Part shown: one piece after another, positions 1 through 55,954 of the stretch
Layout of the letters: every line of letters begins with the position of its first letter
Position numbering within the stretch: the stretch's first letter is position 1
DNA from: Halichondria panicea
Lineage: Eukaryota; Porifera; Demospongiae; Suberitida; Halichondriidae
Direction of reading: 5' to 3'
DNA: 64,000 nt
NCBI RefSeq assembly: GCF_963675165.1
Contig: NC_087388.1
Coordinates: forward strand, 2,148,800-2,212,799
Translations under genes and position numbers: made by a program
The notes under the pieces: generated by a model
Told to the model about the DNA's origin: nothing
The model's database searches: none
Seen by the model: the letters and a program-made list of their open reading frames with translations, nothing else

Positions 1-1
1 G

Positions 2-16671: not shown

Positions 16672-17787
16672 TGCTGGAGGTGCCAAAGCTACATAACATA
16701 CGAATAGTGGGTAATGATCAACCATGATTGTTGTTAAAAACGATCGATGCCAAAAGTTCAAGTCTAAAAATTGATGGCTGCAAGTATGTCAGCAGAGCCT
16801 TGCAGCTCTCTGCTCACTCTTGCAGCTACCAATAGTTAGCGTTCTAGTGCAGAGCTAACTACTAAGTAGAGTAGTAACACTCGGTGAACAAGTTTTGCTA
16901 CGGACTCTTCTGAAAAGGCTGCAATGGCATTCCAAGTAAGCAAAACTAGGCATATTAAACTCGAGAACGAAGCATTATTTTGCAAATCCACGAATTAAAA
17001 TCCAAGAGCACTCATGGAAGGCTTAATTGATGCAGAATTAACACTTGTTCAATAGAGCTCCTATTTTCAGTTGTTTTGTTTATTGGGTCCAATCAGTACA
17101 GTGTACACAGTCTGTGAGAAAGTTATCTTACACGTGTTTGCTGAAATAAAGGAAATGTACGTGTGAAGCCTTTTGTTTTCTTCAAAACTATATAGCTAAT
17201 TTTCTTTAGTACTAATAGGAGGTCTGTGTGTGTATATGAAGCTAGGCAACCGATTAGAAACCACTCCATCAAGTACTTTAAGTTCAAGACAAGTAGATCT
17301 ACCTATTGCTGAAGGAAGTCAGAAAGAAACAAGTTTTCATGGACCAAATGTACAATTAAGCTAAAGCTCTCATTTCTGAGTTAAATGATGCTGACCAACC
17401 TTATAGGAATGTTGACGCACATTGTCCCCCAAAGGTAGTGACAGTACCCATAATCGACGCTCGAGAGCTTCAAAGATGTAATGAGAGCATGATCAGGTCA
17501 AGGGGCTATTGACCACATCTGCATGTCATCATGGGTGTTATATAAGGACAGTGTTTCAGTATACGTACACACAGGCTGTATAGGAAAGTTGTATTATAGT
17601 ATAGCCTTATAGAGTCTAATGTTGAAATAGAAGAACTGTATAGGTGTGAATGTGTACATTATTCATTTCCTCTCAAAAGATTGAAACACCTGTTTTACAA
17701 AGTTAATATAAATACATATAATATAGCATGTAACTATACTAGAGTTTCAGTTTGTCAGATTGTGAGTACTAGTAGCAATTAATAGTG
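16672..17787. other. Non-coding stretch before the membrane protein pseudogene
   Basis: About 1.1 kb in which I see no gene, no inverted repeat element and no splice-consistent frame. It contains the upstream region of the pseudogene at 17788. Confidence 0.5.
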
Positions 17788-19432: not shown

Positions 19433-20302
19433 GTCACCAGTTTGTCAACCACAGCATACTGGATATTTTGATTTCACTCAGTTTGACGTATATAGCTATT
19501 TATATATATATAATAGAGATCCATATAGACGGACGGCTGTGATATGTAATTATGTTCATACAAATTGTTTTTGACTTTTATATTGAGGGCTACGATAACA
19601 ATATTCATGGTAACCTTTTATGTAGTCTAGCTACGTATATACAGTACTAGTTTGGCCCAACAACCAACTAAAGTGTTGTACTTGCATATGTTTAGAATGT
19701 CTCGAAAGTCTCAATTATGTCTGCTTTATGTGGTACTTAACTGCATGATATGCTTATAAACTTCTACATAAACTTTTAGCTGGTTGGAGTTTATCACCGT
19801 GCATGATAGAAGCGCATAACAACCAAGGAATCCAATGGTACATGACATTTTGCACTATGACAAAGTTATGGCAACATTAAGAGGGCCATTCAATACGTTT
19901 AGGTTGTCAGGCATCCTAAATTCGGCAATCTAAGTATTGTGGATTAATTAAACGGGAAGTACATATAGATAGTCCACTATATGCAGTTAATTAGGAAATG
20001 CCGCATGCATGGCAATGGACGCTATAGAATAGAGTCTGAGGGATAGCTTTAAATTAATTTTAGTGAACATTTTGTTTGTAGAAAAAGGGTGGATGCAGGC
20101 AATGCTCATGACACTAGAAAAAGGACTGTGATAATATGTTGTTTAATTAACGTCAATTAAACGATTTACCACGAACAGGTATAGTATGACGACACACATG
20201 TGCTGTGTTTGGAAATTGGTTCTACTGCTTTCAAAAATGCACTCAAGAGCTGCTATTATGAATGGCAGCACTAACATGTCCCCTCTATACACACTGCAGG
20301 CC
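19433..20302. other. Non-coding stretch; left edge of segmental duplication near 20165
   Basis: No gene seen. From about 20165 (CGAACAGGTATAGTATGACG) the sequence becomes similar to 56045 onwards, marking the left edge of the visible duplicated block. Confidence 0.45.
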
Positions 20303-33474: not shown

Positions 33475-33990
33475 TTAACAATTTATTGCACTCAAACTGA
33501 TGTAAATATTCCTTCCTTGCCTGTCAATGTGAAACCTATAATGCTCAGTGTCCACTTCTAGCAGATTTAAAATTGTTTGATAAGTGAGTGATAAATTCTT
33601 GTCCAATAGCTCAAAATCTTCCCAGCATTTGTCTGTCATTACGCACAATCTTCTGCAGTTGTTATCTGTGGAATCTTTGGTTCATCGCTGCAGATATTCT
33701 TGCAAGTCATTCTTGTAACTCGGATATAAGCAGCTCACAATGTGATAGTCATTCAGCCAACTTTTTCTAGTTGTGTCCACTAGTAACGTATTGTTGGTAT
33801 CATGCTCTTTTGAATTCATCTGCTGTTGCATTGCATCTATAGAACATGAGTGTTGTCGTTCAACTGCAGTTGTTTTCCTCACCGAGAACAAGTGCTTATC
33901 AAACTGAATTTGATATTTTCTGGTCTCAATCACATCCTGTCTAAAGTCGATAATAGAACCAGTACCATTTTTCATTTGATTGGCCATCAT
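33475..33990 (-). pseudogene. Gene m, copy 2, broken by a nonsense codon
   Basis: It aligns with gene m copy 1 from the start (ATG 33990 or 33987) to the end. After LQEYLQR a TGA stands where copy 1 has CGA (a C to T change at a CpG), and the frame then continues well conserved to the TAA near 33475 with only a few substitutions. A 102-residue truncated protein could still be made. The downstream frame is still recognisable, so inactivation is recent, or readthrough or allelic variation is possible. Confidence 0.65.
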
Positions 33991-34468: not shown

Positions 34469-35701
34469 ATGTCAGAGAGTGATAAAGGTATACATCTACC
34501 TATAATTATGAGCTTACTATAATAATTTCTTTATTATAATTATAGGTTGGTTTATAGTGGCTCAATGATTTATAGCAGCCCTTTAATAAATAACTGATAA
34601 TATACCACCTGTTTTCCACCTCACAAAGCTGTTAATTATACACCAAGGTCAAAGGTCATTAAGCTAGTACCCAGTTCAATCCATGACTACTGTAAGACCT
34701 CCAAATATGCGACACCCAGGAGCTTCAGCAATTTTCTGACCTCTAAAAATAGCGACAGCTGCATTGACAATTATTTTTTAATGTCGCGTTCTAAATAGAG
34801 GTACATGTAGCCACTCCCTATAGCCTCGATCGTAGCCCACTGGAAAATCAGTGTTTTTAAGCGGCCTGAAATCGAGGCAAGTAGACTCTGTAAAGTTACC
34901 TCTAATTAGATGCGACCCTCTAAATATGCGACACCAGGACTTCAATATAATTTTTTAACCTCCAAAAGAAGCGACCTCTGGCTTTGTAATTATTAAAAAA
35001 TGTCGCTTAAATCGAGGTCTTATGGTAATTGTTAGAGCTGCACCGCACCTGTCGTACCTACGTACGTCTTCTGTACCCAGTTTAGGCATGCAATGATCCC
35101 CTCCCCCACTTTCAGAAGCAATTAATAACTGGAGGCGAGTACCGTTATAGTGATCCTATAATTATTAATTTTGTTATCACAATTAAAACAATCACTATTC
35201 TCTAACACAGGTTGTACATGTTCTATGATGAGCTGTAAACATGCATATGATGAAATGCCATGCAGTGAGAATGTAAGTTTCGAAGAGTTAGAAGAATTAT
35301 CAGAGAAGACAAGATCATTAATCCATAATACAGAGGTTCGGAAATTAGTACAAAAGTTCTTACAACGATTATCAAGAACTATGAAAAATACTGAATTTGT
35401 AGCATTCATGAACCAGCTAAGTGTGACTCTTCTATCAGGATCAGAACAGGTGTCTGCATCGTGCTCAGCTATGCAAGCTGTTAAGATTCACTCGGAACAG
35501 TTTCAGTGGTTTAAGCTAGTCCAGCTTCAAAACTGTGTAGAAATTCTCAACAATTGTTCTGAGTTACAAATAGCAACACTAGGAGAAATCCGACATTACG
35601 TTTACTCATACATTGAACATGAAAGAACAGAGTTATTGAGCTGTAAGAACTGTAAAGTTGCCTTCAAAATAGATCCGATGTATACAAATACTTTCGAATG
35701 A
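34469..35701 (+). CDS. Gene p, copy 2, truncated by a 2-base insertion
   Basis: Exon 1 is 34469-34487 (ATG TCA GAG AGT GAT AAA G/GT), exon 2 is 35211-35701; the intron carries a MITE (34690-35022). The join reads MSESDKGCTCSMM and matches the layout of copy 1. The 169-residue product keeps the conserved core but stops at a TGA after PMYTNTFE. Relative to copy 1, an extra TA in GATGTATACAAATAC shifts the frame. The lost C-terminal part is still recognisable at 35781-35996 (SSFIGTHPVSESLYDSDRSS). Function unknown. Confidence 0.6.
34690..35022. mobile_element. MITE in the intron of gene p copy 2
   Basis: The left end TAAGACCTCCAAATATGCGA and the right end GTCGCTTAAATCGAGGTCTTA are inverted repeats, with internal GCGACA/TGTCGC blocks repeated several times. 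Non-coding. Confidence 0.55.
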
Positions 35702-36189
35702 TCGATCGACATTACTGGAAGAGTGTATTACTACTTACTACCATGATCTGTTTGGACTAACTTCAATATCCTTTCAGTATTTGCCATTAAAAAAATATCA
35801 GTCGTCCTTCATTGGTACTCATCCTGTTTCGGAGAGTCTCTACGACAGTGATCGTAGTTCATTTGTGATGGAACAAAAGCAAAGAGTTTGTAATACTGAG
35901 TCTGTCACAGGTGTCGATACACAAATGTTGGAGGTTTCTACAAGTTATTGTCTGGAATCGAACATGAAGCTTTTTGTTAACATAGCTAAACCCTAACACA
36001 GTGGCAGATCCTAACACTGACTTTACTGGTTGACCCTCATCTTATCGATCTAGATCTCAAATAGCCCAAATGACATTAATAGTTTGCTGTGTGTAGATCA
36101 TAATTATTATGTCAATAGATCTACATGTATGTATACATACACATTAGCAATGGTCACAGTTTTGCCAATATTGAATTTTGTTGATATTG

Positions 36190-36234: not shown

Positions 36235-39200
36235 ATGTCTTCTTCAAGACTCTGAGGTATTACACTTTCCAGAATGTGGCAATGGACTCTGATAAATGGA
36301 CCAACGGTAGATTACGTCATAGAGGCTTGAGAGCTTGCATGGTGGGTGGGGCTCACACAACAAGCTGATACCACACACAGCTAGCTAGAGATATATAGAC
36401 TAGTTATATCATAGATAATAGAGCATGCACAGAAATATGGTTATATAAAGTACCCCCTGCAGCATGTACTATGTCTTAAAGCAAAAGGATATGGAAGGCT
36501 GCATGCACATTTTAATTTTTAATGCATGTCTGGTTCTACCGGGTTGCCCTACAGTTTGCCAGTTTCTTTATCCGTTTCATTGCAAACTTCTGTTCACAGG
36601 ATCTACAGCAAACAGTGTTGCATGTTACACTTGCTTGATTGCATTTGCTCCAGGCATCATTAAAACCTGCTGGTTGGTCCATTAAGGGGCCTATTAAAAT
36701 TAGGTGCATGGACCAACTGCCTGGACGACTGGTAAAAGAATTCACCCAGCTTGCATAAAGTGTTCTAGGTGGGCAGCTCATTTCAAAGCTTGCAGGGGTT
36801 CGTTGGCATCAGGAAAACCTGCTTGTTGGTCCATAGGAGGCTGTTTCTGGAAACTAGGTGGACCAACGACCTGGACGGCAAGTAAGAAAATAGTCACGCA
36901 GCTTGAATAATGTGTTCCAGGCTGGTGTCACAGCTCATTTTTCAAAGTTTAGTGTCTCCATTGGCATCAATTAAAAGAAAACTTGCTTGTTGGTCCATAA
37001 GGTTTCCTTTTTCTGGAAATTAGGTGGACCAACGGCCTGGACGACAAGTAAGAAAATAGTTCACGCAGCTTGAATGCATTATTTAATGTGTTCCATGTTG
37101 GTATATCAGATTGGTGTCAGCTCGTTTCAAAGCTTAGTATCTCCGTTGGCATCAAAACCTGCTTGTTGGTCCATAAGGTTTCCTATTTATGGAAACTAGG
37201 TGGACCAACGACCTGAACGACAAGTGAGAAAATAGTTCACGCAGCTTGAATGCATAATTTAATGTGTTTGAGCTCATTTCAAAGCTTGGTGTCTCCTTTG
37301 GCATCATTAAACTGGAAAACCTGCTCGTTGGTCCATAAGGTTACCTGTTTATGGAAACTGGATGGACCAACGTCCTTGGACGACAAGCAAGAAATAGTTC
37401 ACGCAGCTTGATTTCATGTATACTCATTTCAATGTTTGGTGGCTCCTTTATAGCATTGAAAACCTGCTTGTTGATCTGTTAAAGTTTCCAGTTTCTAGAA
37501 ATTGGGTAGACCAACAGACAACAGGGGTAAGAAAAGAGTTTTTATGCAGCTTGCATTTATTGTGTTGGTTTCAACTTTCCAAGTTTGGTGGCTCCATTGG
37601 CATCAATTAAACGAGATAACTGCATGGGGCCCCATCGTATAAGTATATCATAAAAATTATTCCTGGAAATTCGATGGACCAATCCATGCAGGTAAGAAAA
37701 TAATTATGTTTCTCCAGTTGTTGACTGCTATTACATACAGTGCATGCTGCCTCAGTGTGGGACCTGACATCCTGTGGTTAGACATCATTCAACAGCTCCA
37801 TCTTTTGAATATGTGTGTGTGGGTGTTGTTGCATAAACTTTGCTATTTGATGTGGTTGATTTAAACCTGGCTGCGGTGCCGATTATGACATCTAATGAAC
37901 TCTGATCTTTCTGTTAATTCTATAGATCTAGACTTAGGCTGTATAATGACTGATTCTAATGAAGAGCAGGCTGCCACAGGCAATGAACAAGATGACTTTG
38001 AATTCTCGGTGAGCAACAGTGATACTGAGCCTCAGTCTAGATCTATATATAAAAAATAGTGATACCATGCACAAGTGAATTATGCACCGATCCATGTCAG
38101 TCCCCACTGCCCTCCCCCTGTAGGACATAGTGGGGTTTTGGTAACCCTGAGGTGCGGGATATAGGGTGAGAATTTGAGTTCCTTAGTATACAAACTTACA
38201 ACAGCAATATCCATGGAGAGAAGTGTATAGCACATGCACGCGTGTATAGTCAAATCCCGAGGTTATGAAGTGGGGGTATATGGGAGGGAAAGAGGCGATT
38301 TGATTTCACCCAGGCTCCCAGGATATTGATCATGCAAATCCACACTAAACCCCGACATACGTACACGGGGCGTAGTGGGGCTGAAATTGATACTTCTCCT
38401 ATCTATATAATTATATTGCTATTTTTGGGTGAACAATAAAATTAATATAATTATCCCGGACCTCTATAACATCCATCAATCATATCGTCATCATTATAGA
38501 AGGCCTATGATCCTGAATCGGTTTTCTTAATCTAGCAACATTGACCATGACGATATTTGCCGTGCATGGGTATATTATATATACCCATGTATATCTATAT
38601 ATATATATATATATTGTATCCAATGACATGTATATGAGTAATCAGTATAATTGGTTGGGTATCACTGCATGGGTGATTCCTATTCATTCATGCAACATCT
38701 GCAACACTGATGTAGTGAGTCGCTATAATAATGTATAGCTATCATTGTGCATGTGCTATGTACAAATGCACTAGCTCGTGGCAATAAAACACGTCATCAA
38801 TTATAGAAGGCCTATATGATCCAGTTATAAGCCACTCATGGAAACAGATTCGAGAGGCTAACGAAGATAAATATTCATTTTGCTCAAACAAGTTAAAGAA
38901 GAAGAGGAAACACTACCCTATAGTAAGAGAATTAAAGCATAATTAGTATAAATCTATATGGGTATGAATGCGGGGTATTCGATATTGATGTACAAGCCTG
39001 ATTGCTATTGCGAAATGCATGCGCATGCTCTTTCTTTGCGTTTATTTCGATTGCGAATTATGCATGCATTCGCAGTTTGCAATAGAAAGAACTATCTTCC
39101 AATATACGGTACCATCCATAACCTATTGCTAAGTGATCACGAAGAAGTAAATTAATCCCAAGTGTGTATTATATCGTTCAATTTGTGTCAGATCAAGAAA

Positions 39201-42200
39201 ATGCACTGAGTTGTTCAGGGAAAGGGAATCGTGTCAACTCAATTCAGGAGTGACCAAGAGGGCCATAATGAGCCTTTTGATGATATGACACTAAGTCAAG
39301 CCGGATACAAAGTACAGGTAATCGTACAAACTCAAACATTAGATCTCTACAATCATGCCATTGCAGGATAATGTTTCAAAGTCAGAAACAAAGCCGTCTG
39401 GAATTCCAGTGCCATTGCTGTCTGCATATCTCATCAGTGTACATGAACAGCGTGCTTTCAACTCATTGGACAACTCTCTCCGGTCGTTTGTTATACAGGG
39501 AATCAATAGAATCGATTCCTCTTTGAATGTAAGTATATTATCTTTTTCGTGCGTATAATTGCATGCATATAATATTATAAAAATTATAGAGAGATAAAGT
39601 ATAATTATATTCATGTAGGTTGGTCTGTTGATCTATTAACTTCACTGAGCATGGAGTTTCTTTTCGTCTCACGCTGTGGGTTGCACTTCAGTGATGGTAT
39701 ACAGTGGGTATACTGGTGCAGTTGTGATAGTGCACGTGGCCACTTACTAAATAGCTGCTCCACTTCGGTTGATTCCACATATGATGCATTCACAAGCATT
39801 GTTGGCTCTGAATGTATCCACATCGAACCAACTAGACTGATTATCCAAGAGACTGACAATATTCACAACATTACATCAGCTCAAGAATTATCAGGTACAT
39901 GTCTTCTAAAAGTGCATGCACAGCTAATATTTATGAATTATCCTCATACCCATTCAGATCATTCGTATACTTTGAATATCGAACCTCACAAGGAGGACAC
40001 TTCCTACAGTATAAATGTTGGCACAGAGGTAAGTTGGACACTATTGTGCATGCATGTACGTCTCCAATCACAACTATATAATTATAATGATTTACAGGTT
40101 GTATGCTCTATTGGGCAGGCGGTATGTACAAGAGCTGATATAGTGGCCATGGTGTTGTACAAGTTCGTATTGATGATAAACAATTAAGGGGTCTGTACTG
40201 TTGTACATGCAAGTACAATAAACAGCACAGTTCACATGTGGACATTGTCGAGAAAGCATTGAATAGCCCGGATGAGGATAAACATGACTGCCTCAATAAA
40301 ATTGCAAAAGATCTGTCTAGTGTGCAGCAGAATAGACAAGTGCATGTGCATCAGTATCGGTCCCTTAATTTCATCAAGCAGTATATATACCGTTCAATTT
40401 ATCAAGTGAATTGTCTCAACAACTGGCATGTACTGTAGCTGATCGCTTCAACATTGTAAACAACACTTCTATTTTGGGCTCAGTCGACACATATTGTAAA
40501 GTGTGCAGTACGCTTACACGAGATGAAGAAGACAAGCAGGAATCTGTATGGAGCAAAATTATACTGCTCAATACAGTTATCAATGCGAATGGTAGGTGGC
40601 TTTAGAAGTATAAATCCATAACAATTATTATATTGACCAAACAGTGCATGTTAGGTATTGCTCAGGATGTAAGAAACGTAAAGAATTTGATGGCCAACTA
40701 GTAGGATTAGTGACTATGGGCAAGTTCCTGGTATCCTATGAAGTTATGCGAGGTTTTATGCATCAATTCCTTTTGGGAAGGTAATTAATGTTGCATGTGT
40801 GTGCACTTTGACTATTAACGATACATTTCCTCTTCAGAACAACTATATATACCCAGTATTGTGTGTTGGTTAAAAACCATGAAGATGCAGGATTCGGCAA
40901 TCAGTTTAATAAGTATATGTTTACATACAATCACTATCGGTTGTCGTGGTATGCCTTTCTTGACCTGTTAGACATTGATTATCAAGTAGGATTTCAGTGC
41001 ACTGCGTGTGGAGATTGTCCACCCATTGTTGTCATGGATGCTACTTGTTTAGATTCATGCAGAAAAGACCTTATGCCCTGGAAGTCCCAACTCAACGGTT
41101 CTGGAGTTCATAAAACCTCATCCCCTATCAGCTGTACTGGAAGATAAGTGCAAATTTTCCCATGTCATCAACCCCTGTATATAATCCGACTAGAAAAACA
41201 TTTGCAATGTGAAAAATTGCTAGGATTGGCCAGGGGAACCACAAAAAAGCGTGGGAACAAGAAATCAGACGAGAGCATAACTCCAATCCGTTACAACGTC
41301 AATCACATGTATACTGGTAGTTTTCCCATGTTTTCCCAGCCAATATGCCACGCAATTTTTACTGGTGGAGTGATGACCAATCCCTATATATATTTATTAT
41401 ACATCCATTTTAGAATGTGGGGCACATAATCATGATGATTTGTGATAAATTGATGTTCCTAATACATGCAGTGTTGAGCACAGGTACACACAGTCCATCC
41501 ATGCGTAGTAACATGCACGGACCGTACTGGTGACTGCATGGAATGATGTGGTGGATGGAAGCTGATAGGTGGATCTGGAACACAGTCTATTATTTAATAT
41601 ACTATGTATTGTACATGTTCATGACGTTGTAACGGATTGGAGTTATGCTCTCGTCTGATTTCTTGTTCCCACGCTTTTTTGTGGTTCCCCTGGCCAATCC
41701 TAGCAATTTTTCACATTGCAAATGTTTTTCTAGTCGGATTCCCTTTCTTTTTCAGTACAGTTTACGTATCATGACATGCATAAGTGGAACGTCAAGAGGC
41801 AGTACAAGAAGAGAAGACAGGACTAATCAGATATCTTCTCGAATATCTCTGGACTAATAATTATAGTATAATGAGTAATAATTTATTGCTTGATAATTAT
41901 GTTGAATTTGCGAATCAGTATTAAATGACAGCCATTTTAAGAGCATGATATCTAGCCAGTGCATATAGCATGCCTGTCAGAGAAAGGGAGCTAGAGCTGA
42001 ACAGTGTGAAGAAAAGGAACACCTCAGGCTCTGGAAAAGCAGAGATACAAAAGAAAGGGGATTGGAAACGATCGCCCACGCCCTATGTAAAAGGACTGAC
42101 ATCCGGTGAAGCACTCCGTGTAATTATTGCGCTCGCAAATAATTACATGGAGGACTGCGCTACGGTTTTGTATCCCTGGTTTCTAGCTCTCCTATCCACT

Positions 42201-45200
42201 AGAGATCACTCAGGGCCTGGGAGATACTTGAGAGAAGTAAGCTTATACCACTGACAAGCTCTAAGTCCGTTGTCTTTACTCTGTTTCCAATTTTTTTGAG
42301 TTTAGCTTGAATTACTCTATGTCAACTTTTCTCTGTCCCTCCTATGAAGTCAAAACAGCAAAGGACATTGCTTGACTTGGTTATTATGTATCTAAGTGCT
42401 ACATAGAATGGCTTCATGCTATAAATAAGCTGTACTGTTCATAAACGTTTGCAGTATAGTCCTTCAAACTGCTTTAGTATACTTTTAGACACACCACGGG
42501 CCTGTCCCTCCTACGACTTCATAGTAAAGGCTATTTCTTCTTGCATAGCATTTATTTGTCTAGTAATAGTGGCTGCGTGGCTTAGTCGACTTTTTAGAGC
42601 TAAATTCTCTTTACTTTTTAGAAAAATCAACATTAAAAATGATCAATTTCACTGTTTCTATGTACAGCACATTGTAGAGCAGTCAAGACAGGTAATGAGC
42701 ATGCTGACTATAAATATAATCCTTTGTAGTTTTAGCCACGCCCTATAACGCGGAATGCTTCACGCAAAAATTTCGTAAAAATTTCGTTTCCAATCCCCTT
42801 TCTTTTGTATCTCTGGGAAAAGCACTGCTGCACTGATTTTAGGCGCACGGTTTATTAGCCACGCCTATCTATTATTATTGGCCACAACGCAATTGCTGAG
42901 TCATTAAAGATGGCGGAATTGTCTAGGTAAGAGAAATAGAGACTGAGAGGTCATCTGCCTTGTGGAAGCAATCGCAAATCTGAAGAAGCGCTTTGTAATC
43001 CAGGTTGTAGTCGTTTGGAAACCCTGTGCAGAATGTCCTGGAGATGGCTGTACTTGGAGTAAATGCTGGGCAAGAAACTTACTTACTTACTTACTTACTC
43101 ACTTACTTACTTAGTCAGTCAGACAAAGAGCGGTGAAACGTCGAAATAGTGCAATTTTTAAAATGAAAATATTCATTCATTAAAATGTTTATGGATTATG
43201 AAATGAGAGATACAAAGAGAGAAAAGGCTAAATAAACTATCTGTTCAGCCAGTTTCTTGATGTGGCCTTTCCCTGCAGAGATAGAACAGTTTGAACATGA
43301 GTCAAAATAATTGAAATATTGCTAAACACAGGCAAACCCACTGCCAATCCTATGTAAAACCTACTGGTTTTACTAATGATTATATATATAATGATAGTCC
43401 TCCCTGAGCTAAGACAAAATAAATACCTTGCCAAGCATGCATGCACAGATTTATTCAAAACTTGAATCCATTTGTAGAAGGTGCCTCTCATCATAGTAAT
43501 CATATACAGTGTGGCGAAAGCTGTTTTACTTATTCAGCAATTATTGTTGTGATAAGTTTAGGATCATGCGGACAGCTGAAAAGTTACTGTATTTATTTTC
43601 TTTCAACACTAGTTTCCATGATGGGATATACATCAACAACAAGACAACACACACGCAGCTGAAGATGTTTACTACAAAGAAGTGTATAAGCCAGCATGAA
43701 TTCACTTCTCTTCTAGAATTACTACATTTGCACGCACCAAGTTTGGTCAAACTTATCACCACAATAGCTAAAGAAGTCAACGAGGCTGATACAGCTGTCT
43801 CCTGTTGCAAGCACTGGATTAATTTACTGCAAGCTCTCAGTTCAGCATCACCTGTGTGTGCTTTGGTACCACCTACAGAAGAAGTGCACAAAATGCTAAA
43901 GGAAATGGAGTCTTCTGGCTCCTTGAAGTCAAATGCAAAAAAGATGGCCTTTCTACAAAAGGAAGCTCCAGTACTGTTCACTTTAATTGAATGTCTTCCT
44001 TCTTACCCCACTGAAGCATTGCAGCCTATACTAAAAAGGCTTGTGGAATTATCATTAGCCCCATTTACGCAAGACTTCACAGAGTCTAGTACTGGTGACC
44101 ACACTGACATTAATGATGATGATATGATATCGTACTTTCCAAAGCTTCCTTCACTAAGAAAACGAAAGATTTATAAGGCTGACAGTTTTAAATCCTCTGT
44201 ATGTACAAAAAAAAGCTCAAGACATCCATCACTGCTACCGGGGATATTTACTCTGTATTGTCAGCATGGTAATGCTGCATGCATGATAATTATAATTATT
44301 ACGCCTCTACCGTATTACTAGAATATTTTGCAGGTGAAAAACCTTTGCGAATGAGCCAAATCAGCAGAAAATTTGACCCTTTGCGATCTAACTATTGTGT
44401 TCTGGCAAGTATTTACTAGTAATAATTTAGGTTTTGCGGATTTTATTGATCAACCCTCGCAAAATTCGCAAATGTTTGATGCTCGCAAAACATTCTAGTA
44501 ATAATTATGGTACATTAATTTGCATCAATATTGTATAGGAATTTGCTATGGATTCCAACTGATGGAAGTTCAGGAATTCCCAAACATTCCTTTCACTATC
44601 TTATATGAACGATTCTCATCAGGTATAAATGCTATATATATCGGGATGATTATTTTTAAACTCTTCCGGCATGCAATTGCATAATATAATTATATGCCCT
44701 TGTATCTGCAGCACCTGAAGTCATCATATACGACAATAGTTGCAACCTGCACCAATACTGCTTGAATAGAGAGCCCCCCTTTTTCAGGCACAGTCGGTTT
44801 CTAGGTCTAGTAGATCGTTTCCATTGGCCAAATCATTCAGGTATAATTATAATAATTGTATGTTAAGTATAATTATATGATTTTAATTACCATGCACTTA
44901 TATATCATACAGGATGCAGTGTTGCTTACAAAATGAGCACCTATAGACAATAATGATGCCTTGAATAGCCAGATGGTAGAGCAAAGCAATTCATGCTTGA
45001 AGAGAATCAAATCGTCACTGTCGTATATGAATAAAAGAAATTTCCTCACACATTGTGGATTTTATTTATGGTATCACAATCAGAAAAAACTATAAGTATA
45101 ATGTACTCACATGCATGATGGTCTTGTCATGCACTTTTTGTTTTTACAACCATGAATTTAAAATTGTGGCGTCACTTGTTCTGACTTATCATGCATGCGT

Positions 45201-48200
45201 TACAATAAGGGGTGACTGAAGAAATTACACACAAAACAATCATATTATATGCATGGGGGAATAACAGATGAGAAACTATATGAGGGAAACTAGTAACTAT
45301 ATTATTGCACATAATTATATACAATAAAAAATAAACATTCTGAGCTATACTACAAGCTATACAATTAATGTTAAGTAAAAATAGCAGTTAAGGCTTCGAT
45401 TTTGCTGTCTTCTTAACAGATACACTGGCATCATCATCAGTCTATTGCATAGTAGACAATGTCGGTATAGTTTATATACCAGCATGCATTGAAGCATGCT
45501 CATATACACATTATACAAGTACATAGCAATCAACGTTTGTGAATGCATGAACACAATCATGAGTGCGTGTCAGTGTGGTGTACTCACCTGCAGATCTGTA
45601 TTAGCAACCCTTTTACTCCTTCTGACGCCGTGAGATGTCTTTTGGCTGCAGTATATAGGTACACATGAGGGAGTAGCCAAAATCATTTTTTTTTACCTTT
45701 GTTGAGTGGAGTAGCATGATAACAGGATCAATCCACGTAATTCAGCAGTGTTTACAGACTTTTGCAGGTGCTTTGATGCAGGTAGTCCAGAAAACTGATC
45801 AATTGTGTTAGTGTAAATACTCATGAATGCTTTTACATATACCATCACGTACCTTGACCATTGTCATAATAATTATTGTGTATCACATGAATGCCACATT
45901 CAACTCCATCCTGAGCGGCCACCTAATACAATAAACATTCGTGAAATAAAATCCATCACGAAACAAGGAGTGCGTGGAGTATCCAAGAAGACAAAAAAAA
46001 TTGCATTTGGGGCAACTAAGCAAGTCAATGATTTAACTTTTATGATTACCCCATGCATGTGCACTCTATAAATTATATACCTTCACACACTGTATATCCA
46101 TCTTTGCAGGTGATCGAATGCACATGCTTAAGAATTGATTAATGTCTTGTGCATGCATGTTGCCTGCTCAGTAAAAGGTGAGAGAATTGGCGACTGGGAG
46201 TCAAGAACATAGACACTACAGAAAAGGAAAATTATACTCACATTAGTAATAACCTTTTTGACAGACCAACAAAACATGTAATCCTATCACATAATATAAT
46301 GCATCCATGAGGAGAGCTCACATGCATGTATGGGTACTGGTCGAATTAGACTCCAGAAACTCAATCACATGCATAATAACGTACGTTTTCTTTGGGAGAT
46401 TGACAGCAACAAGAATCCAGTGCCAGCCTCTATAATAATTATGATGTATACGTGGGAACAATGAAATTCTCATAAACACAATATGAAAGTGAATTCAGTG
46501 TGACAACTTATACCTTACTCTACACGGAAACAGAATCCTTAAATGTCATTGTAGATTTCAGCATACAGAGTCGCAGTGAGGCTTTCATTCAGTCTGATGT
46601 ATAATAGAGTCTGTAGATGCAGCTGTATGATGAGTTTTTACGACAGTAGTCTGACAAATTGTGTAAACAAAATTAATAATTATAGACTTGAATTAGTCGA
46701 TATCATTGTGATCATCACAGCTGTAAAAGTGTACATACCAGACTGTCGTGTGTTACTTATTACCTTACCTGTCGTATAGGCTGTTGTCTATCCAATTTCC
46801 GGCTGGATATGATATTCTGATAGACCATGCAGGGAACAGGTTTTCGAGTTTCCAACAAAGCCACCATGCATGCAGCATTTGAAATGAGCTGATACCCACC
46901 TATAAAAGAATGAATGCAAGCTAAGCTGCATGAACTATTTTCTTACCTGTCAGTGTCGTCCAGGCCGTTGGTCCACCCAGTTTCCAAAATAGAAAAGGTT
47001 ATGGGCCAACGTCCAGGTTTATTAGTATAACTGCATGATGCCAACGGAGAGCCACCAAGCTCTGACAACCAACTATGCAGGAACACATTAAAATAATGCT
47101 CAAGCTGCGTGAACTATTTTCTTACTTGTCGTCCAGGCCGTTGGTCCACCTAGTTTCCTTAATTGATGCAAACAAGAGACACTAAGCTTTGAAATGAGCT
47201 GACACCAACCTGGAACACATTGCATTCAAGCTGCGTGAACTATTTCTTACTTGTCGTCCAGGCCGTTGGTCCACCTAGTTTCCAGAAGCAGGAAATCTTA
47301 TGGACCAACGAGCAGGTTTTCTAGTTTAAAGATGCCAACGGAGACACCATGCAAGCTTTGAAGCTCACACCAACCTGGAACACATTAAAAGAAAGTGCGT
47401 GAACTATTTTCTTACTTGTCGTTCAGGCCATTAATTGTTCACCCAGTTTCCAGAAACATGAAACCTTATATGGACCAACGAGCAGGTTTTCCAGTTTAAT
47501 GATGCCAACGGAGACACCATGCAAGCTTGCTCACACCAAACTGGAGAACACATTAAAAAGAATACATTCTAAGTGTGCGAACTATTCGTCCAGGCCGTTG
47601 GTCTATCCAGTTTCCAGAAACAGGAAACCTCATAGACCAACAAGCAGGATTTCCAGTTTATAATGATGCAACGGAGACACCAAGCTTTGAAATGAGCTCA
47701 TAATCACACCAAACTGGAGAACACATTAAAAGAATACATTCAAAGTGCGCGAACTATTTTTTTACTTGTCGTTCAGGCCGTTGGTCTATCCAGTTTCCAG
47801 AAACAGGAAACCTCATAGACCAACAAGCAGGATTTCCAGTTTATAATGATGCCAACGGAGACACCAAGCTTTGAAATGAGCTCATAATCACACCAAACTG
47901 GGGAACACAGAATGCATTCAAAGTGCATGCATTTTTACTTGTCGTCCAGGCCGTTAGTTTCCAGAAACGGCCTCCTGTATGGACTAACGAGCAGGTTTTC
48001 CTGATGCCAACGAAGACATCAAGCTTTTAAATGAGCTCGGATACGGCTATAAAAAAGAATGCATGCAAAGTACAATGTAAGTAAACTATTTTCTTGCTTG
48101 TTATCCAGCCCGTTGGTCCACCCACTGAAATAGGAACTTTAATGGACCAACGAATGCATTTTCAGGTTTACCTGATACCAACGGAGCCATACCGAGAATG

Positions 48201-51200
48201 TTTAAACACTTGTACTTTGTGTAGGGAGTGAAAGGACGACACCAAGGAGACCTGGACAGGGGCGCATCCAGGAAAAACAAAAGGGGGGGGCTAGACTAGC
48301 TAGAAAGGGACGCAGCCTCGCCGGAGGCGAATTTTTTTTGCAAGATTTGACCTTTGAACTTTCATATTAATGAGTAGAATACGTTGACCTCTGCACTTAC
48401 TTTTAATACTATGGTGATACTGTACTGATCAGATGTACGTACGTACGTACAGCTAGCTAGCTAGCTAGGTACGTCCAGCTAGCTACCCTAGATCCTTTAT
48501 ACTCCTAGTAGCTGTTGTCTAGCATCTCTCAAGTGATTTCAAGTGAGTCTACAGATGCATAATTGGTGGCAAAATTGTTGTAGAGTCAGACTACAACACA
48601 TGGTAGTTTTTTCAAAAGGGGGGGGCTTCAGCCCCTCAAAATCACCCCTGGATCCGCCCCTGCTGGACCAGCTGTTCCATACCTTTCTTAAATTGTTGCT
48701 TCAATTATAGATATATAGTAGAGGAATCGACAGACATGTTTCGAGAGACTACTCCCTTACTTCTTCTACTATCTATGCTTCAATCAACAGTAGATCTAGT
48801 CTACATGCTGCAGTGGATACTTGAGCGTCTAGCACTGTACTGTGTACGTGTGCATACTGCATGGGGCTTGTGTGTGTGAGCCCCACCCACCCTGCAGGCT
48901 CTCAGCCTCCTCATGACATAATCTACCGTTGGTCCATTCATCAGAGTCCATTGCTACACAGCCAAAAATCCACGGGCCGTTTCATGCCTGTTACGGGCCC
49001 GTTACAGGTATAAATCCACGTGGTGTATTCAACTGTTTGGTTAGGTACTGTTTAGCAGCCTGTGGATTTCAGCATGTAATCAGCCGTGGGACGGGCTGTA
49101 AGCAGCCTGAGCACGGCCTGTAAGCAGCCCTATGTTCTCAGTTAGTTCCGGTTTGCAGTTAAAAGCTGAGTTTGGCATGAATAATTCAACGAAGTGTTAA
49201 AATTTTTAAGAAACAAACATAGCCAGACAGTTCGACAGTTTACAACACTAATAGGAATGTTTCTTCTAGTGCTTGTGCTGCTCGAGTGTGTCACTGTGTG
49301 TATAAAGAAGACACGTGAATAATGGTTGGAAAGAAAATAATGTTTCTTACATTTATAAATTTTCTGTTTGACTGTTTGTACTACCAGCCATGTCCTCTGT
49401 CACACTGTGTGTATAAAGAAGACATGTGAATATCGTTGCAAAGAAAATAATGTTTCTTACCAATATAATGTGTTGTTCGACTGTTCGTACTGTCCACAGA
49501 CCAGCCATGTCCTCTGTCACTGTGTATATAGTGAATATCGTTGCAAAGAAAATAATGTTTCTTACCAATATAATGTGTTGTTCGACTGTTCGTACTGTCC
49601 ACAGACCAGCCATGTCCTCTGTCACTGTGTATATAGTGAATATCGTTGCAAAGAAAATAATGTTTCTTACCAATATAATGTGTTGTTCGACTGTTCGTAC
49701 TGTCCACAGACCAGCCATGTCCTCTGTCACTGTGTATATAGTGAATATCGTTGCAAAGAAAATAATGTTTCTTACCAATATAATGTGTTGTTCGACTGTT
49801 CGTACTGTCCACAGACCAGCCATGTCCTCTGTCACTGTGTATATAGTGAATATCGTTGCAAAGAAAATAATGTTTCTTACCAATATAATGTGTTGTTCGA
49901 CTGTTCGTACTGTCCACAGACCAGCCATGTCCTCTGTCACTGTGTATATAGTGAATATCGTTGCAAAGAAAATAATGTTTCTTACCAATATAATGTGTTG
50001 TTCGACTGTTCGTACTGTCCACAGACCAGCCATGTCCTCTGTCACTGTGTATATAGTGAAATATGGTTGCAAAGAAAATAATGTTTCTTACCATTATACA
50101 TTTTTTGTTTGACTGTTTGTACTGTCACAGACCAGCCATGTCCACAGCCAGTAACTTAACTAAAGCAAAACACAAACAAAGTTTTTATAATTATTATGAA
50201 TGATTGCTTACCTGCCAAATTCTGATAGTTCCTAAAGTATAGGTGTGTCCACGATGCTGTAATTAGACCAACCAATGTAAACGACAATAATTATTATTGT
50301 AAAATACCTTCTGGTCATGATGGGTTGAAATCATTGATGGCATGAGCATTCCAATTTATATATGTACATCTGTATGTGTGCATCAGTACACGAGTTTAAA
50401 GTGAGTTAAATAATTATTAATTGGCTCACATTCTCAAGTAGTGTGACAAGGAACCTCAATCTCGAGCTCATCAGTACAGTAATGATGACATAGACACAGG
50501 TACATCTGTGTGTGCATACGTACGTAAACGAGTTCGAGTAAGTGAGTCAATAATAGAACCTGAATCTCGAGCTCGTAAAGTAATGATGACACAATATCAT
50601 AGGTATACATTTTATATACCTCGTACTCACTTATATAGTAGTCGTTGTAGAGGTCCTTTTTAGATGTGTATTCCTATACATAAGCAGCATATTGACCAAC
50701 ATTTTAAAAACCAGCTGAGCACTCACTTATATTAAACGTTGTAGAAGAAGTCAACAACCTGCGTCAGAGGCAACCAGATCTGCAATACGAAATAACTCTG
50801 TCAACATAATTATTTATACATTACCACATAAGCACACCTTGTAGCCTATAGAGCTAGACTCCTAGAGACAGTGAAAGAAGAATTGCAGAGACATCTAGCA
50901 GCTGACAAATGGACAGAAGTGAGTATTAATTAGACCTACTATACTAGCTCCTTATTTAGACTCTACTTACTTCCTCTCTCTCTCTTTTCTTGCTAGCTGG
51001 CCTTGGCAGTCAGCTCCATAAATAATATAATTACTCCATCCATCCTTTAAAGCTGCAACTGAACGAGAACATCAAACTGAAGCACCTTTTCAGTCTCTTG
51101 GTGGATTTCGTAGCTAAGCAACTTTCTCTCTGCGCATGCGCATACACTGGCTGCACAGGCTGTAAGCAGGACGTGGGTGGTACAGGCTGAAACAGGCCCG

Positions 51201-54200
51201 TTATTTACGGTCCGTATTCAGGACAGGATGTACGTGCTGTAACAGGCCTGTGGTTCCAGGATGTAAGCGGGCCGTGGGCGATTACATCCGCATACAGGCC
51301 CGTATTCCGGCCTGTATTCAACTGATTTTCCCCACGGGCCTGAAACAGGCCTGTGGATTTTTGGCTGTGTAGTTGGGAGGAGCCCGACCGTCCCTGACGG
51401 GAGGTCGGGTTGCAAGCCTATCTGGGATTTGTTCTAGCGCCACTATAGTGGCGCCCTATTAGATTGCAGCATTTTTCACGTGGCTTGGTTACACTTCCGC
51501 TTGCATCTAGTTGCAAAACCGCATGCAGTATATTGCTGTGCCGTCCTGTGGTTTACACGTCATCAAGTCGGTTAACACCCACTTGAGAATAATAATATTC
51601 ATAGCAGTACTACATAATGCGCAGAACAAATTCCAGATAGGCTTGCAACCCGACCTCCCGTCAGGGACGGTCGGGCTCCGCCCAACTAGTCCATTGCCAC
51701 AATCTGGAAAGTGTAATAACTCAGACTCTATATTTCCAAGCTACCAAATGTCTCCTCCTTGGAAGTTTATGTGGCCAACTATGAGCTGTCTACAGATGGA
51801 CCTGCTTTACAACTACTAAAATCAAAGTGCAGGTAAATTCAGCATGATATCTAGATCTAGCCTGCCATATCGATATTCACTGTTTCTGATCTGGCTAGAA
51901 ATGTAAGTAGAAATGTAATTTGTGGAGACTGCTCAGCTGCATTGTAGCCACAGTAGTTGCATTCATATAGTTATTTAAGGGTCCTAAAAGGATACAATTA
52001 TGGATATGCAGCTAGCTGTATTACTACTTAACTACCATGATCTATTCCGACTAACTTCAATATCCTTTCAGTATTTGCTATTAAAAAAATATCAGTCGTC
52101 CTTCATTGGTACTATCAATGGTACGCCCCACCCCCACCCCGCCCACCTGGAGAGCACATGGGGGAAATGTAGTGGAATGGTCAACATATTGACGCCCGAT
52201 GGGGGGATTGGAAGGGGAAGTGACCTTCAACAATAAAATTAATATTCGGTTGTAGCCACCCTCGACCATTGTTTATATTGTTCTCTTTTTTTCGGCCTAC
52301 TCAACATGGGGGAAGTACACAGCTGATTCCCCATGTATGGGGCAAAGGTCACTGATAGGTTGTCACTTCCCCCACGTTTCCCCTATATCACCCCAGGTGG
52401 GGGGAGGGGGGGTGGGGCATATCATTGATAGGTGCATAAGTAGGCTGCATGTGACCCGTGTAGGGAGGTGGCTCGCTCTGACTCCGGACTGCTGGCCTCC
52501 CCCACTCACGAGGCACTGAGAACTCCCTTTGGGTCACCTCCAGAGCTGTCGCTATGGATTGTGTCTAAGGTATAACTTACGTGTATTAAATGTGAATATG
52601 AACCCAAAGACATAACATTCTTAAACTACACCCAATAAACCATAAACCATCAGTACTCCCTGTATCCAGTCTGGTTGATCCTATATACAAGAGTGTTCAC
52701 CTCTTGATGGTTTTTCGCACAGGCTGGTTACATAAAAAATCCAAAGACGGCTAAAATTCTGAGCAATCTTCAATTGAAAGTGAGTCACTCATTAGCAGGT
52801 CCCACATTGTTAATATTTATCTTATTTTTAGTTACAAAGAAAGGTAGTGCTGAATCACACCATACTCCAAGCTTGCTATCACTTCACCCTGGTCGCCCGC
52901 CTGGCCCCTAAGTGGAACAGAGTCCTCTCATGGCTCCTACAGGGTATGTCTAAATTATCTCCGTGTGTGTGTGCGTGCGTGCGTGCGTGTGTGTGATTGC
53001 TCGTATGAGACACTGACAGTCTGTTTTGTTATCCAATCAAGGTTGTGAGTTTTTAACAGAAGGAAAAGGGCAAGGGATTGGTAGGTGATATTGTTTTTTC
53101 TAGATTTGTGCATTTTGGAAGACTTACATTGTACTCATCCACCGTTTTTTAGACTTACAAGTTGGGCTGACTAATGAGGAGATAACGGTCACTCTCTCTG
53201 TGTACAAGTTCTCGTTTAGTCTGATGAAGGTAAGCTGTAATTATTGCAATCTTTAAGCGTTTAATGCCATGCTCAGAGATTGATTATGCCTGTCTTGTTC
53301 AGGTGGAAGACCTACTGACAACGTTTTCTCTGCTCAACACCTTCAGGACGGATCCCCAGTGTGTTATCAATGAAGGCAGTATCTACAACAATAGGTGCTT
53401 TCTGCTACCTAAGTAAGTGTGGCACAGATATTGTGGTCACCCTGTAAGCAAGTGACCCTCTATATACAGGCACGCTAATAAGCCCCAAAATGTTCATAGT
53501 AAGAAGTTACATAGTTTTGTGATTGAAGAGTTAGGAAGCAAAAGTACCGGGCCTCAAGTAACATCTGCGCTACGTTGCGGTTTAGTTGAGGCCATCACAA
53601 CAATACCTATTTCTACACACAGTGCATAATAAGCTACAAGTAACTGCTCAGTCCGTGCAACTTCAAGGTCTAGTAGTAGTTATAACTTATAACCAGCACA
53701 CTTACACGTTCCACGTTCCATTGGCTCTAAAATAGCCTTGGGAAGTTTTTACTGGAATATGTCTCTTTTACTGGGTGTGGTCAGTCATTAGCAAGTACTA
53801 CACGTGGCTCACAGACTAAGGCGTGTTATAAATTGCTGAAAGCGAAGAAACACAACTGAGGGAGTTACGCTTAATAGCCTCATTCATAGGGCGTAACGTG
53901 GATCCTTGCCATAACGCAATAATTGATTGCAAAGGGTCTACTTTTCTGCTGATCTAGCTCATTCGCGAACGTTTTTCACCAGCATATAATATTGTAGTAA
54001 TACAGTATCACGCTAATGCTCTTTGTTAACCCCAGCTAATCGGTGTGCCCACTCATTCCCTTTGTTCCAGTTTCACTGTGGGCTACATCTACTCCACCTC
54101 TCACTTCCTTACCCCTGGCACAGAGTTCCAAAGCTATGACCAAGTTAGGCTACACTGGAAGAAACAGGTGATTGAGTGTACAATACATACTCTCTGCACG

Positions 54201-55220
54201 ATCAATGATGTGGATAGATTCATGACTAGCCTTGCCGTTACCAAAGCAAAAAGCAATATGCACTACATGCTGGTATTTTTTTCTTGTCTGTGTCACTATG
54301 TTTAGATGTTTATTCCTTATAAAGTGAGGTCCCAGGAGGCCAGGGCCTAGGGGTGTTCATTTTGACCAAAGTTACTCGAGGCTTATGATCGTCCTTGGTA
54401 TAAGCCCTTGGGTGTCTCATTACCGATTGATTACTTGTCTGCTTTAAAGTGATGTTTGTACATAATGTACATTGTCATGTATTTATTTATACACCTAATG
54501 TTACCCTGGCCATCTCTGTACATTGTAACACTTTCTTTGCAGCATGGTATTATTCTTCCTGAGAGGGAGAATCTCTTCTACCAGGTGTTCTTTAAAGGGA
54601 ACCCAAGAAAGTTTTTCAGGTAACAGAAATTGTAACTGCGTGCATATCTACATGTAACTAACTATAATTATATGAATGACATAACAATACCGATTTGAGT
54701 TAATATATTAAAGTTACTCACTCTCCTACACAGTTACCCAGGCAGCTGTGTGTATAAAAACAAGCCGATCCACTTCCCCAGCCGAGACACTGACCAGGTC
54801 GCCACTGCATTCATAGCAGACTTACACGCCCGACTACAAACTCAAGTGGTTCCGAATATTCGTATTCCACAACAGTTCACAGGACCTCGTGTTGTACCTA
54901 TATTGAAGTATAAAGTGACAGCACCTTCAGTAAACAAGACAATAGCTCCTCAGGCAAAACCTAAGGCTCCTATCGTACCAATATTCAAGCCTGTTTCGAT
55001 GGGAACAAATTCTCAGTTGCTCGGCAAGAGGCAGACAGTGAAGAACTCAGTAACTGAAGCTACAAAAAGGCCATGTTTAGAGCCTATAGTTACAACTCAA
55101 ACAACAGTACTCGATGCATGCGCACAGCAAACACAGTCTCAAACTATTCTCAAGAAATCATTGCATCAATTGAACACTAAGAAACGACGAGCCCCTCAAT
55201 CAACCACCAAGAAGCTTTAA
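36235..55220 (+). CDS. C18orf63-like gene, ten exons, exon 1 split by a 15.5-kb transposon
   Basis: Exon 1 is 36235-36253 joined across the transposon to 51730-51832. Then follow 52464-52569, 52723-52779, 52832-52943, 53042-53080, 53153-53229, 53303-53412, 54071-54167, 54543-54619 and 54734-55220. All introns are GT-AG and every join keeps phase, giving 428 codons with stop. The match to human C18orf63 is from memory and rests on order and motifs: a short N-terminal domain (LYISKLPNVSSLEVYV), then ACYHFTLVARLAPKWNR, SIYNNRCFLLPNFTVGYI, FQSYDQVRLHWKKQ, HGIILPERENLFYQVFFKG, and a basic low-complexity tail. The molecular function of this family is not known. In the allele shown, translation from the ATG meets TGA after six codons, at the element boundary, so full-length protein is not expected. 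Clean downstream exons suggest a recent insertion or a functional other allele. A relic of exon 2 is at 7573-7678. Confidence 0.8.
36650..37700 (+). repeat. Left subterminal array: seven ~160-bp units with hairpins
   Basis: Units recur at about 36706, 36862, 37022, 37199, 37362, 37506 and 37672, counted at TGGACCAAC. Each unit has the form GTTGGTCCA - GGTTTCC - loop - GGAAACT - TGGACCAAC, then a conserved stretch (AGAAAATAGTTCACGCAGCT, CAAAGCTTGGTGTCTCC, TTGGCATCA). The palindrome could form a stem of about 20 bp in DNA or RNA. The same units occur inverted at 46900-48200. The outermost GGACCAACGG in the terminal repeat is of the same type. These are probably transposase binding sites. Short open frames here are chance. 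Confidence 0.75.
41183..41740. repeat. Perfect 119-bp inverted repeat with 320-bp spacer
   Basis: 41183-41301 and 41622-41740 are exact inverse copies over all 119 bases by direct reading (arm begins AATCCGACTAGAAAAACATT and ends TTACAACGTCA). The spacer is unrelated. No target duplication is evident. The arm can be read as LGLARGTTKKRGNKKSDES; a similar but diverged piece is at 32658-32710. It lies between two halves of the KDZ-type gene. It may be a recent foldback element or an inverted duplication of an exon. Confidence 0.8.
42040..42815. mobile_element. 776-bp hAT-like element, CAGAGATACAAAAG ends
   Basis: Inverted ends of about 32 bp (CAGAGATACAAAAGAAAGGG) are identical, flanked by GGAAAAG (42033-42039, 42816-42822). 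It carries a GCCACGCCCTAT/ATAGGGCGTGGC inner pair. No transposase. It is inserted in the KDZ-type gene region. Confidence 0.65.
43077..43115. repeat. ACTT microsatellite
   Basis: About nine copies of ACTT/ACTC, then AGTC repeats. Other simple repeats in the window: GCTA at 11268-11286, TA at 38594-38613, GTAC and AGCT at 48433-48466, and GTGC at 52966-52995. Confidence 0.8.
45388..45800 (-). CDS. Possible second KDZ-element gene, last three exons
   Basis: Three minus-strand exons fit together. The first reaches down to 45697 (upper edge unclear, near 45800) and encodes SGLPASKHLQKSVNTAELRG. The second is 45588-45645 (SHGVRRSKRVANTDLQ). The third is 45388-45441 (TDDDASVSVKKTAKSKP, TAA stop). 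Donors and acceptors are GT-AG and phases agree (2, then 0). A Lys-rich end suggests a nuclear protein. Further exons may lie to 46300 (a short MCIRSPAKMDIQCVK piece near 46115), but I could not join them. No family recognised. Splice fit is the only evidence. Confidence 0.35.
45801..46769. other. KDZ element interior, no clear gene
   Basis: Short AT-rich frames only, including the plus frame 45823-46071, which has no splice or homology support. It may contain upstream exons of the minus-strand gene. Confidence 0.4.
46770..48240 (-). repeat. Right subterminal array: about eight hairpin units, inverted relative to the left array
   Basis: Units recur at about 46969, 47141, 47264, 47430, 47597, 47780, 47951 and 48110, counted at CCGTTGGTCCACC or variants. 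Each is the inverse of the left-array unit with the same CCAGTTTCC...GGAAACC...TGGACCAACG hairpin. Some units have compensating changes on both sides of the stem, such as GTTGGTCTATC with GATAGACCAAC-type partners (47597 and 47780). This suggests spread by copying of whole units. Confidence 0.75.
48257..48662. mobile_element. 406-bp hAT-like element, CAGGGGCGCATCCAGG ends
   Basis: Inverted ends CAGGGGCGCATCCAGG and CCTGGATCCGCCCCTG, 5-bp duplication CTGGA (48252-48256, 48663-48667). Same family as 11182-12012 and 21826-22214. Non-coding; inserted in the KDZ right terminal region. Confidence 0.8.
48957..51369. mobile_element. 2.4-kb TA-flanked element with satellite, CACAGCCAAAAATCCAC ends
   Basis: Inverted ends CACAGCCAAAAATCCACGGG (one mismatch within 24), flanked by TA (48955-48956 and 51370-51371). 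Subterminal ACAGGCC/GGCCTGT blocks recur in both arms. It contains the 105-bp satellite 49428-50057 and no transposase. A TA duplication suggests Tc1/mariner-type mobilisation. It was inserted exactly at the terminal TA of the MULE-like element 51370-51688. Confidence 0.8.
49428..50057. repeat. 105-bp satellite, six near-identical units
   Basis: Period 105 exactly (unit starts 49428, 49533, 49638, 49743, 49848, 49953), with degenerate units on each side (about 49315-49427 and 50058-50150). The six inner units look identical. Since 105 is divisible by three, long frames appear in three or four frames on both strands; they are artefacts. Each unit has GTGAATATCGTTGCAAAG and GACCAGCCATGTCCTCTG. 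Degenerate edges and a uniform core are usual for unequal exchange. Confidence 0.9.
51370..51688. mobile_element. 319-bp MULE-like MITE with 9-bp target duplication
   Basis: Ends TAGTTGGGAGGAGCCCGACC and the inverse, with about 60-bp repeat arms; the 9-bp duplication GTCCATTGC is at 48946-48954 and 51689-51697 (the left copy was moved away by the TA-flanked element). The empty site in the left KDZ terminal repeat reads GCAATGGAC once (36279-36287). Same length and related arms as 6682-7000. Confidence 0.8.
52012..52118 (+). pseudogene. Fragment of gene p in C18orf63-like intron 1
   Basis: It matches 35722-35820 (CTACCATGATCT, CTAACTTCAATATCCTTTCA, CAGTCGTCCTTCATTGGTAC). It is the same strand as gene p. 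It shows a third copy of the p 3' region placed on the far side of exon 1, perhaps a short local duplication. It is too small to code. Confidence 0.6.
52119..52463. other. Intron 1 remainder, inverted GGGG/CCCC segments
   Basis: Two opposed segments, CCACCCCCACCCCGCCCACC (52130) and GGTGGGGGGAGGGGGGGTGG (52394), with GGGGGAAATGTAG/CCCCCACGTTTCCCC nearby. This suggests a small foldback element of about 300 bp. No gene. Confidence 0.35.
53413..54070. other. Long intron of the C18orf63-like gene
   Basis: 658 bases between GTAAGT and TTCCAG, by far the longest intron after intron 1. No ORF or repeat is obvious. The flanking exons restore the Asn codon of LLPNFTVGY. Confidence 0.6.
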
Positions 55221-55249
55221 CTAACAAGTACTGCCCCCAAACATTCCAG

Positions 55250-55954
55250 AAGCCCTAACCACACCGCAGTCAGCAGCCAACACACACCAATCAAACAGTA
55301 CCTGATCTGAACTACTCTCTACTGGGCGAGCTTAACGATGACTTTGATTTCCTCCCGAGCAAAGCACCCACACTCAATAAAGGAGTAAAGCATACTCAAT
55401 GCAATACTGCAAGCACTGGAACCATGTTCACTGGAGTCAGCCCAGACCTTGTGAAAAAGGTATGCAGTTGTACTAGCCTAATGTTTTAACTGAAACATGA
55501 AGATATTGTGAGTGTGTATTGTAGCTGATTCTAGTAAAGTCCTCAAATTTGAATGCCTCACTCAGCTTCTAGACTGAGATTATTCACAATGTTAATGGGA
55601 AAATTTGGCGGGAGTGTTTTAGTGTGACAATATTTTGGCAAATTTCACCGAAGATCCTAAATTTAAACGCCAATATTACAGCTAAGCAGTGAATGCAACG
55701 TCAGACATGCCCAAGACGCCAAATTAAAAACTGCCAATTACAAGTATAATACTCCCCATGATGTTTTCATGTTATACGGTATAATAGCGTAATGTATATC
55801 TCCCCAGGTCAACAAGACCAAGGCAGCCGGTTTGAAAAAGTGGCTGTTAGACAATGGGGTCAAGTGTCGCAGCAAAGAAAAGAAGGAAGATCTTGTGAGA
55901 ATGGTTGTACAGCATATCACATCAACTGGCAAGAACTTTGAACTTACTGTCTAA
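55250..55954 (+). CDS. SAP-like domain exons downstream of the C18orf63-like stop
   Basis: Two blocks join in phase across a GT-AG intron. The first ends at 55459 (TGTMFTGVSPDLVKK, preceded by LGELNDDFDFLPSKAPTL); the second is 55808-55954 (KAAGLKKWLLDNGVKCRSKE, then KKEDLVRMVVQHI, stop TAA 55952-55954). The helix-loop-helix pattern LKKWL..NG...R.KEDLV resembles a SAP DNA-binding domain. They could be alternative 3' exons of the C18orf63-like gene, or the ancestral end after a stop arose at 55218; a frame difference exists between the two. I cannot decide. Exon 1 boundary unknown. Confidence 0.45.

Follow-up and report, generated by a model that had tools for sequence, protein, structure and literature searches.

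A probable KDZ-like transposon with nested insertions in coding exon 1 of one of two tandem DUF4708 (C18orf63-like) gene copies in Halichondria panicea

Introduction

The closest described systems are the Zisupton and Kyakuja DNA transposons. In the part of PMC12730594 drawn on here, Zisupton makes 8-bp target duplications, and fungal Kyakuja families make 7-bp target duplications and have CA..TG ends without inverted repeats. Nematode Zisupton elements, in the part of PMC9297572 drawn on here, are multi-exonic and carry inverted repeats, their target duplication being given as undetected.

Our literature search on KDZ elements and pseudogenes in sponges returned nothing relevant, and DUF4708, the family of the host gene described below, was not found mentioned in the literature searched. 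DUF4708 is an animal family, to which we take C18orf63 to belong. Tandem duplicates inactivated by transposons are a known kind of event.

Here, we describe a genomic stretch in which one of two tandem copies of a DUF4708 gene carries a transposon in its first coding exon, together with the matching empty site in the other copy, the lesions by which the two copies differ and the further insertions nested in the transposon.

Materials and methods

The window, i.e. the whole stretch of 64,000 nucleotides analysed, corresponds to C12:2148800-2212799 of a 131-Mb assembly in 39 contigs. The element and the interrupted gene are numbered by window positions, and other loci are given with their contig. 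Nine other copies of the element, whole or partial, were compared with the one in the window. A scan of the 64-kb window against Rfam at gathering thresholds gave no match.

Results

An insertion flanked by a 7-bp duplication in a DUF4708 gene

A DNA transposon of 15,469 bp, nested insertions included, occupies positions 36254-51722 on the plus strand and was delimited by its terminal inverted repeats (TIRs), its 7-bp target-site duplication (TSD) and its relatives in the genome. It is flanked on both sides by AGACTCT (36247-36253 and 51723-51729), so that the insertion of about 15.5 kb in coding exon 1 proposed by a sequence-only reading of the window keeps its boundaries. The left piece of exon 1 (36235-36253, plus strand), which is the same as in the paralogue at C12:2219664, ends with the first AGACTCT, while the second opens the remainder of the exon (51723-51832, plus strand), as established by joining the flanks and by comparison with the paralogue. 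The insertion point falls at codon 7 and the duplicated 7 bp span codons 5-7. Inverted-repeat pairs place the left TIR at 36254-36320 (plus strand); the outer 35 bp of the two ends match at 33 positions, counted by eye, and the pairing runs on to about 67 bp across a nested insertion.

When the flanks are joined over a single AGACTCT, exon 1 measures 122 nt and is followed by nine more exons with GT-AG introns and consistent phases, giving 427 codons plus a stop, which equals the open frame of ten exons and 428 codons announced earlier. Exons 2-9 (52464-52569, 52723-52779, 52832-52943, 53042-53080, 53153-53229, 53303-53412, 54071-54167 and 54543-54619, plus strand) were modelled and aligned with the paralogue. 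Residues 6-280 of the joined protein match the Pfam family DUF4708 (PF15813; E 1.6e-39, 136.3 bits for a cut-off of 27, profile positions 3-272 of 274), which bears out the proposed C18orf63-like identity, and the domain would be whole were the element absent. No relatives were found in the viral contigs scanned with the DUF4708 gene.

In the interrupted gene, translation from the original ATG yields MSSSRL and then meets a stop formed at the insertion junction; in the frame of the exon, two TAA codons precede it at the right end of the element. Among 176 combinations of GT and AG dinucleotides near the element ends, 22 bring an ATG into frame. One of these joins an ATG at 36296 and a donor at 36307 to an acceptor at 51724, giving MDQR followed by LYISKLP; the acceptor CTCAG is made up of the right end of the element and the target duplication. 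Removal of the element by splicing from a GAG|GTATTA donor (36257) to the same CTCAG was rejected, as it leaves eight extra bases and a TGA (worked out by hand), and this donor does not appear among the in-frame results.

An uninterrupted second copy with the empty site

A genome search with the joined protein revealed, among the best candidates scored, a second exon set at 2219664 to 2224276 on C12. This downstream copy (C12:2219664-2225070) lies outside the window, about 19 kb from the broken copy, and has an open frame of 11 exons and 624 codons with a single terminal stop; its DUF4708 match is nearly the same (E 1.5e-39, 136.4 bits). Its exon 1 is uninterrupted and holds AGACTCT once, and the joined window flanks share with it 59 consecutive identical bases spanning the junction. 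This exact empty site in a paralogue shows the insertion and the 7-bp duplication directly. The open-frame sister expected of a tandem-duplicate pseudogene is present, with a 200-base N gap preceding it.

Exons 1-9 align between the two copies without indels. Exon 10 of the window copy (54734-55459, plus strand), by contrast with the absence of decay claimed for the downstream exons, has lost 180 bp in frame near 54836, 17 bp near 55218 and 8 bp near 55273 relative to the downstream copy, the last two deletions shifting the frame. The 17-bp deletion creates the stop at 55218-55220, hence the end at 428 codons. We rejected this stop as the true gene end, since the paralogue continues to 624 codons and an 11th exon; judged from these two copies, it is probably not the ancestral terminus, and the exon 10 of the window copy would be the derived state. 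Exon 11 persists behind the premature stop (55808-55954, plus strand; 146 of 147 bases shared with the paralogue, in which it is the last exon, C12:2224924-2225070). It encodes a weak HeH/LEM-like C-terminus (E 5.6e-4, below the cut-off), a faint suggestion that the DUF4708 protein may have a function connected with DNA or the envelope.

The two copies differ at 33 of 1651 exon bases and at 76 of 2403 intron and flank bases (2-3%). Over 424 alignable codons, with the 180-bp deleted part and everything past the frameshift set aside, dN is 0.011 and dS 0.041 (dN/dS 0.28; Fisher p 0.0045). This ratio, an average over both copies that cannot be split between them, means constraint over most of the time since duplication; loss of function in the window copy would have come late.

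Intron 1 of the hit copy contains a 97-bp stretch (52017-52113) that is about 95% identical to 35724-35819 upstream of the gene. The downstream copy lacks it in its intron 1, and the few genome matches of this stretch all lie on C12.

Tandem units, older fragments and an assembly gap

Each gene copy belongs to one of two units, about 20 kb long and arranged in tandem, which align in pieces: 20164-55988 (element removed) with 56045 to C12:2225104. The match is patchy up to 26070, and substitutions between the units vary by stretch from 0.8 to 13.7%, decreasing towards the gene. Such uneven divergence over the tandem units (20164-64000 and C12:2212800-2225104) may mean partial homogenisation.

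Remains of an older unit lie near 4.3-7.7 kb, upstream of the two main ones. Positions 4298-4749 correspond to unit-2 positions 33491-33942, and 5468-6117 to 35291-35938. A relic of exon 2 (7568-7672, plus strand), found by blastn and tblastn, shares 93% identity with the downstream copy across 103 bp; the same searches detected no other exon of the gene in 1-20000. An arrangement of three full 20-kb units was rejected, the first unit being present as fragments only.

One N-free stretch holds the window copy together with the first half of the next unit. A gap of 200 N (C12:2216167-2216366) then falls inside that unit, before the gene of the paralogue, so that the unit depends in part on scaffolding. 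From C12:2225104 to 2232000, no further match to the window longer than 80 bp was found. At C12:950695-951598, 1.2 Mb away, lies an inverted copy (93%) of sequence upstream of the gene; the DUF4708 search gave no match at this locus among the candidates listed.

Insertions nested in the element

Three further insertions interrupt the element. The first, A (41186-43373, 2,188 bp), is flanked by TAAT on both sides and was recognised from its junctions, its absence in relatives and its copies in the genome. It is absent from seven of the nine compared copies, namely those covering the site (C8b and C13 do not cover it), and near-identical copies occur elsewhere in the genome (best 40 of 1530 candidates). 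A segment inside A, 42042-42810, is lacking in A's relatives among the same best 40 of 1530 candidates and looks like a fourth nested insertion.

The other two lie in the right TIR. N1 (48955-51371), delimited by its junctions, has ends TACACAGCC..GGCTGTGTA with GTCCATTGC on both sides and holds a 105-bp tandem array (49426-50143, 6.8 copies at 98%). At its right end stands a MITE-like element (51372-51686) with TA on both sides, recognised from its junctions and from genome copies, those listed being mostly 97-98% identical. Both are absent from nine other right ends (C4, C8a, C39, C17, C9, C8b and three further ones).

Subtraction of A, N1 and the MITE-like element leaves about 10.5 kb, and six other copies measure about 9.8-10.8 kb. 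The nested insertions probably postdate the landing of the element, which may, alternatively, have carried them along from its donor. The insertion in the right terminal repeat has probably immobilised the element.

Element family and resemblance to KDZ transposons

Family members have ends GAGGTATT..AATAACTC, with inverted repeats beginning GAG. A 465-bp left-end query found 31 matching stretches in the genome, of both end types and the window's own among them. The nearest relative, C4, shows 0.41% substitutions relative to the window element across 9,645 alignment columns, a figure that leaves out blocks shorter than 200 bp and everything right of 48257. Six other copies aligning over at least 8 kb diverge by about 1.2 to 2.2%, the C13 copy by 2.8% over 4.6 kb and C8b by 13% over 0.7 kb. 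The insertion looks young, given 0.41% to the nearest relative versus 2-3% between the gene copies, the relative ages being read from sequence divergence. An exact 7-bp TSD flanks five of the nine copies for which both ends were read (those of the window, C4, C39, C17 and one on C8); the other four (C8a, C9, C8b and C10b) have none.

Two related copies lie near each other in equal orientation at C8:6064138-6082988. At C13:1825700-1833900, a related copy has a right-type end and a 7-bp flanking repeat that both appear inverted, as if an inversion breakpoint lay inside the element.

Two predicted transposase exons (44538-44840, i.e. 44538-44622 and 44712-44840, plus strand), chosen by eye and spliced, match positions 93-169 of 217 of the KDZ profile PF18758 with E 2.2e-4 and 21.4 bits, below the cut-off of 26.6. 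One single exon matched KDZ with E 0.011 and another CxC4 with E 0.13, and unrelated families came at E 0.015-0.14, which is near chance. A second joined transposase fragment had no match in Pfam, and the other open reading frames of the element gave only below-cut-off matches to unrelated families. When the KDZ model was run against the whole genome, the 66 matches listed did not include the window element. The tblastn search with the transposase fragment found no relatives in plasmids. Two translated stretches of a locus on C7 with a weak KDZ match are, by eye, unlike the window element, and no match to the element is listed there. The KDZ type put forward by the sequence-only reading is kept as probable, though at 21.4 of 26.6 bits and unlisted among the 66 genome matches.

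Discussion

We estimate at roughly 85% the probability that the interrupted copy, one of two redundant tandem duplicates, is a pseudogene that has taken several hits and would have lost its function. The DUF4708 gene lies in a segment of about 20 kb that is duplicated in tandem, an older third unit upstream having kept only exon 2 of the gene. The downstream copy retains its open 624-codon gene, and a cut-and-paste transposon, probably KDZ-like, struck the window copy, duplicating AGACTCT. The window copy would additionally have lost 180 bp in frame and acquired the two frameshifting deletions of exon 10, in an order that we infer, and the element would then have taken up at least three further transposons, its right terminal repeat included. 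Of the caught-in-the-act disruption first suggested for this locus, the transposon with its TSD in coding exon 1 and the apparent recency stand, but an uninterrupted tandem paralogue exists in the genome.

The strongest challenge to this history concerns the nature of the downstream gene, which might be a transposon-free allele set in tandem by a false assembly duplication, the insertion being a heterozygous polymorphism of a single gene. The 200-N gap does separate the stretch of the window copy from that gene, and the 2-3% divergence between the copies is of a size that allelic differences could attain, as heterozygosity in marine invertebrates can reach 2-3%. We nevertheless regard this as unlikely. 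The first half of the downstream unit shares its N-free stretch with the window copy, from which it differs by 0.8 to 13.7%, and no match to the window over 80 bp was found between C12:2225104 and 2232000. Moreover, the unit resumes nearly in register across the gap (unit-2 position 33039 before, 33146 after) with no jump in divergence (3.3% before, over n=92 bases, and 4.0% after), on which account we take the downstream gene for a true paralogue rather than a misplaced allele. An overlapping and distinctly less probable view is that a young insertion has disrupted the only, otherwise healthy C18orf63-like gene of the animal. The clean TSD, the open joined frame and the indel-free exons 1-9 would suit it; the uninterrupted second copy in the same genome and the three exon 10 deletions in the hit copy disfavour it, unless the downstream copy was created artificially in the assembly.

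Activity of the hit copy through a new start, with loss of the first residues only, appears very improbable, whether transcription began in the element or a left-end donor were spliced to CTCAG. Under the second form, to which we likewise give very little credence, the transposon would act as a 15.4-kb intron, with its start at 36296, donor at 36307 and acceptor at 51724 and the frame kept from residue 6; the hit copy would then be a short paralogue, its C-terminus cut and its DUF4708 domain retained. The existence of this in-frame combination and the dN/dS of 0.28 across the pair speak for such a rescue, but with 22 of 176 combinations in frame such a fit would be expected by chance. In addition, the original ATG is situated upstream and leads straight into a stop, no pyrimidine tract precedes the acceptor and exon 10 is frameshifted anyway. 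The pseudogene of a redundant duplicate thus remains our preferred reading.

That a single genome offers the same exon in filled and empty form provides a clean internal comparison, which fixes the insertion point and the 7-bp duplication and yields a relative age. The locus is also instructive wherever gene loss is read at single loci: what looks like the knock-out of a conserved gene can prove to be no more than the loss of a redundant copy.

The window family resembles the Zisupton/KDZ group (PF18758) in its predicted multi-exon transposase with a KDZ-like block, its TIRs, which Zisupton shares, and its several genome copies. It differs from Zisupton in its TSD, of 7 bp instead of the 8 bp given in the part of PMC12730594 used here. 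Kyakuja, according to the same part of that source, has the 7-bp TSD, seen in five of the nine window-family copies, but also CA..TG ends and no inverted repeats, in contrast to the long inverted repeats found here. Since this combination of a 7-bp TSD and inverted repeats fits neither Zisupton nor Kyakuja exactly, we call the element KDZ-like and leave its lineage unassigned; it probably represents an additional KDZ-like family in animals, characterised by long inverted repeats and 7-bp target duplications.

As in other tandem duplicates inactivated by transposable elements, a copy with an insertion and frameshifts has an uninterrupted sister nearby. Compared with the usual cases, the present one is unusually clean, with an exact empty paralogous site and nested insertions bordered by short junction repeats. 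The event itself is ordinary, in that a transposon would have contributed to inactivating a spare copy of a gene, and it comes with an internal control of unusual clarity.
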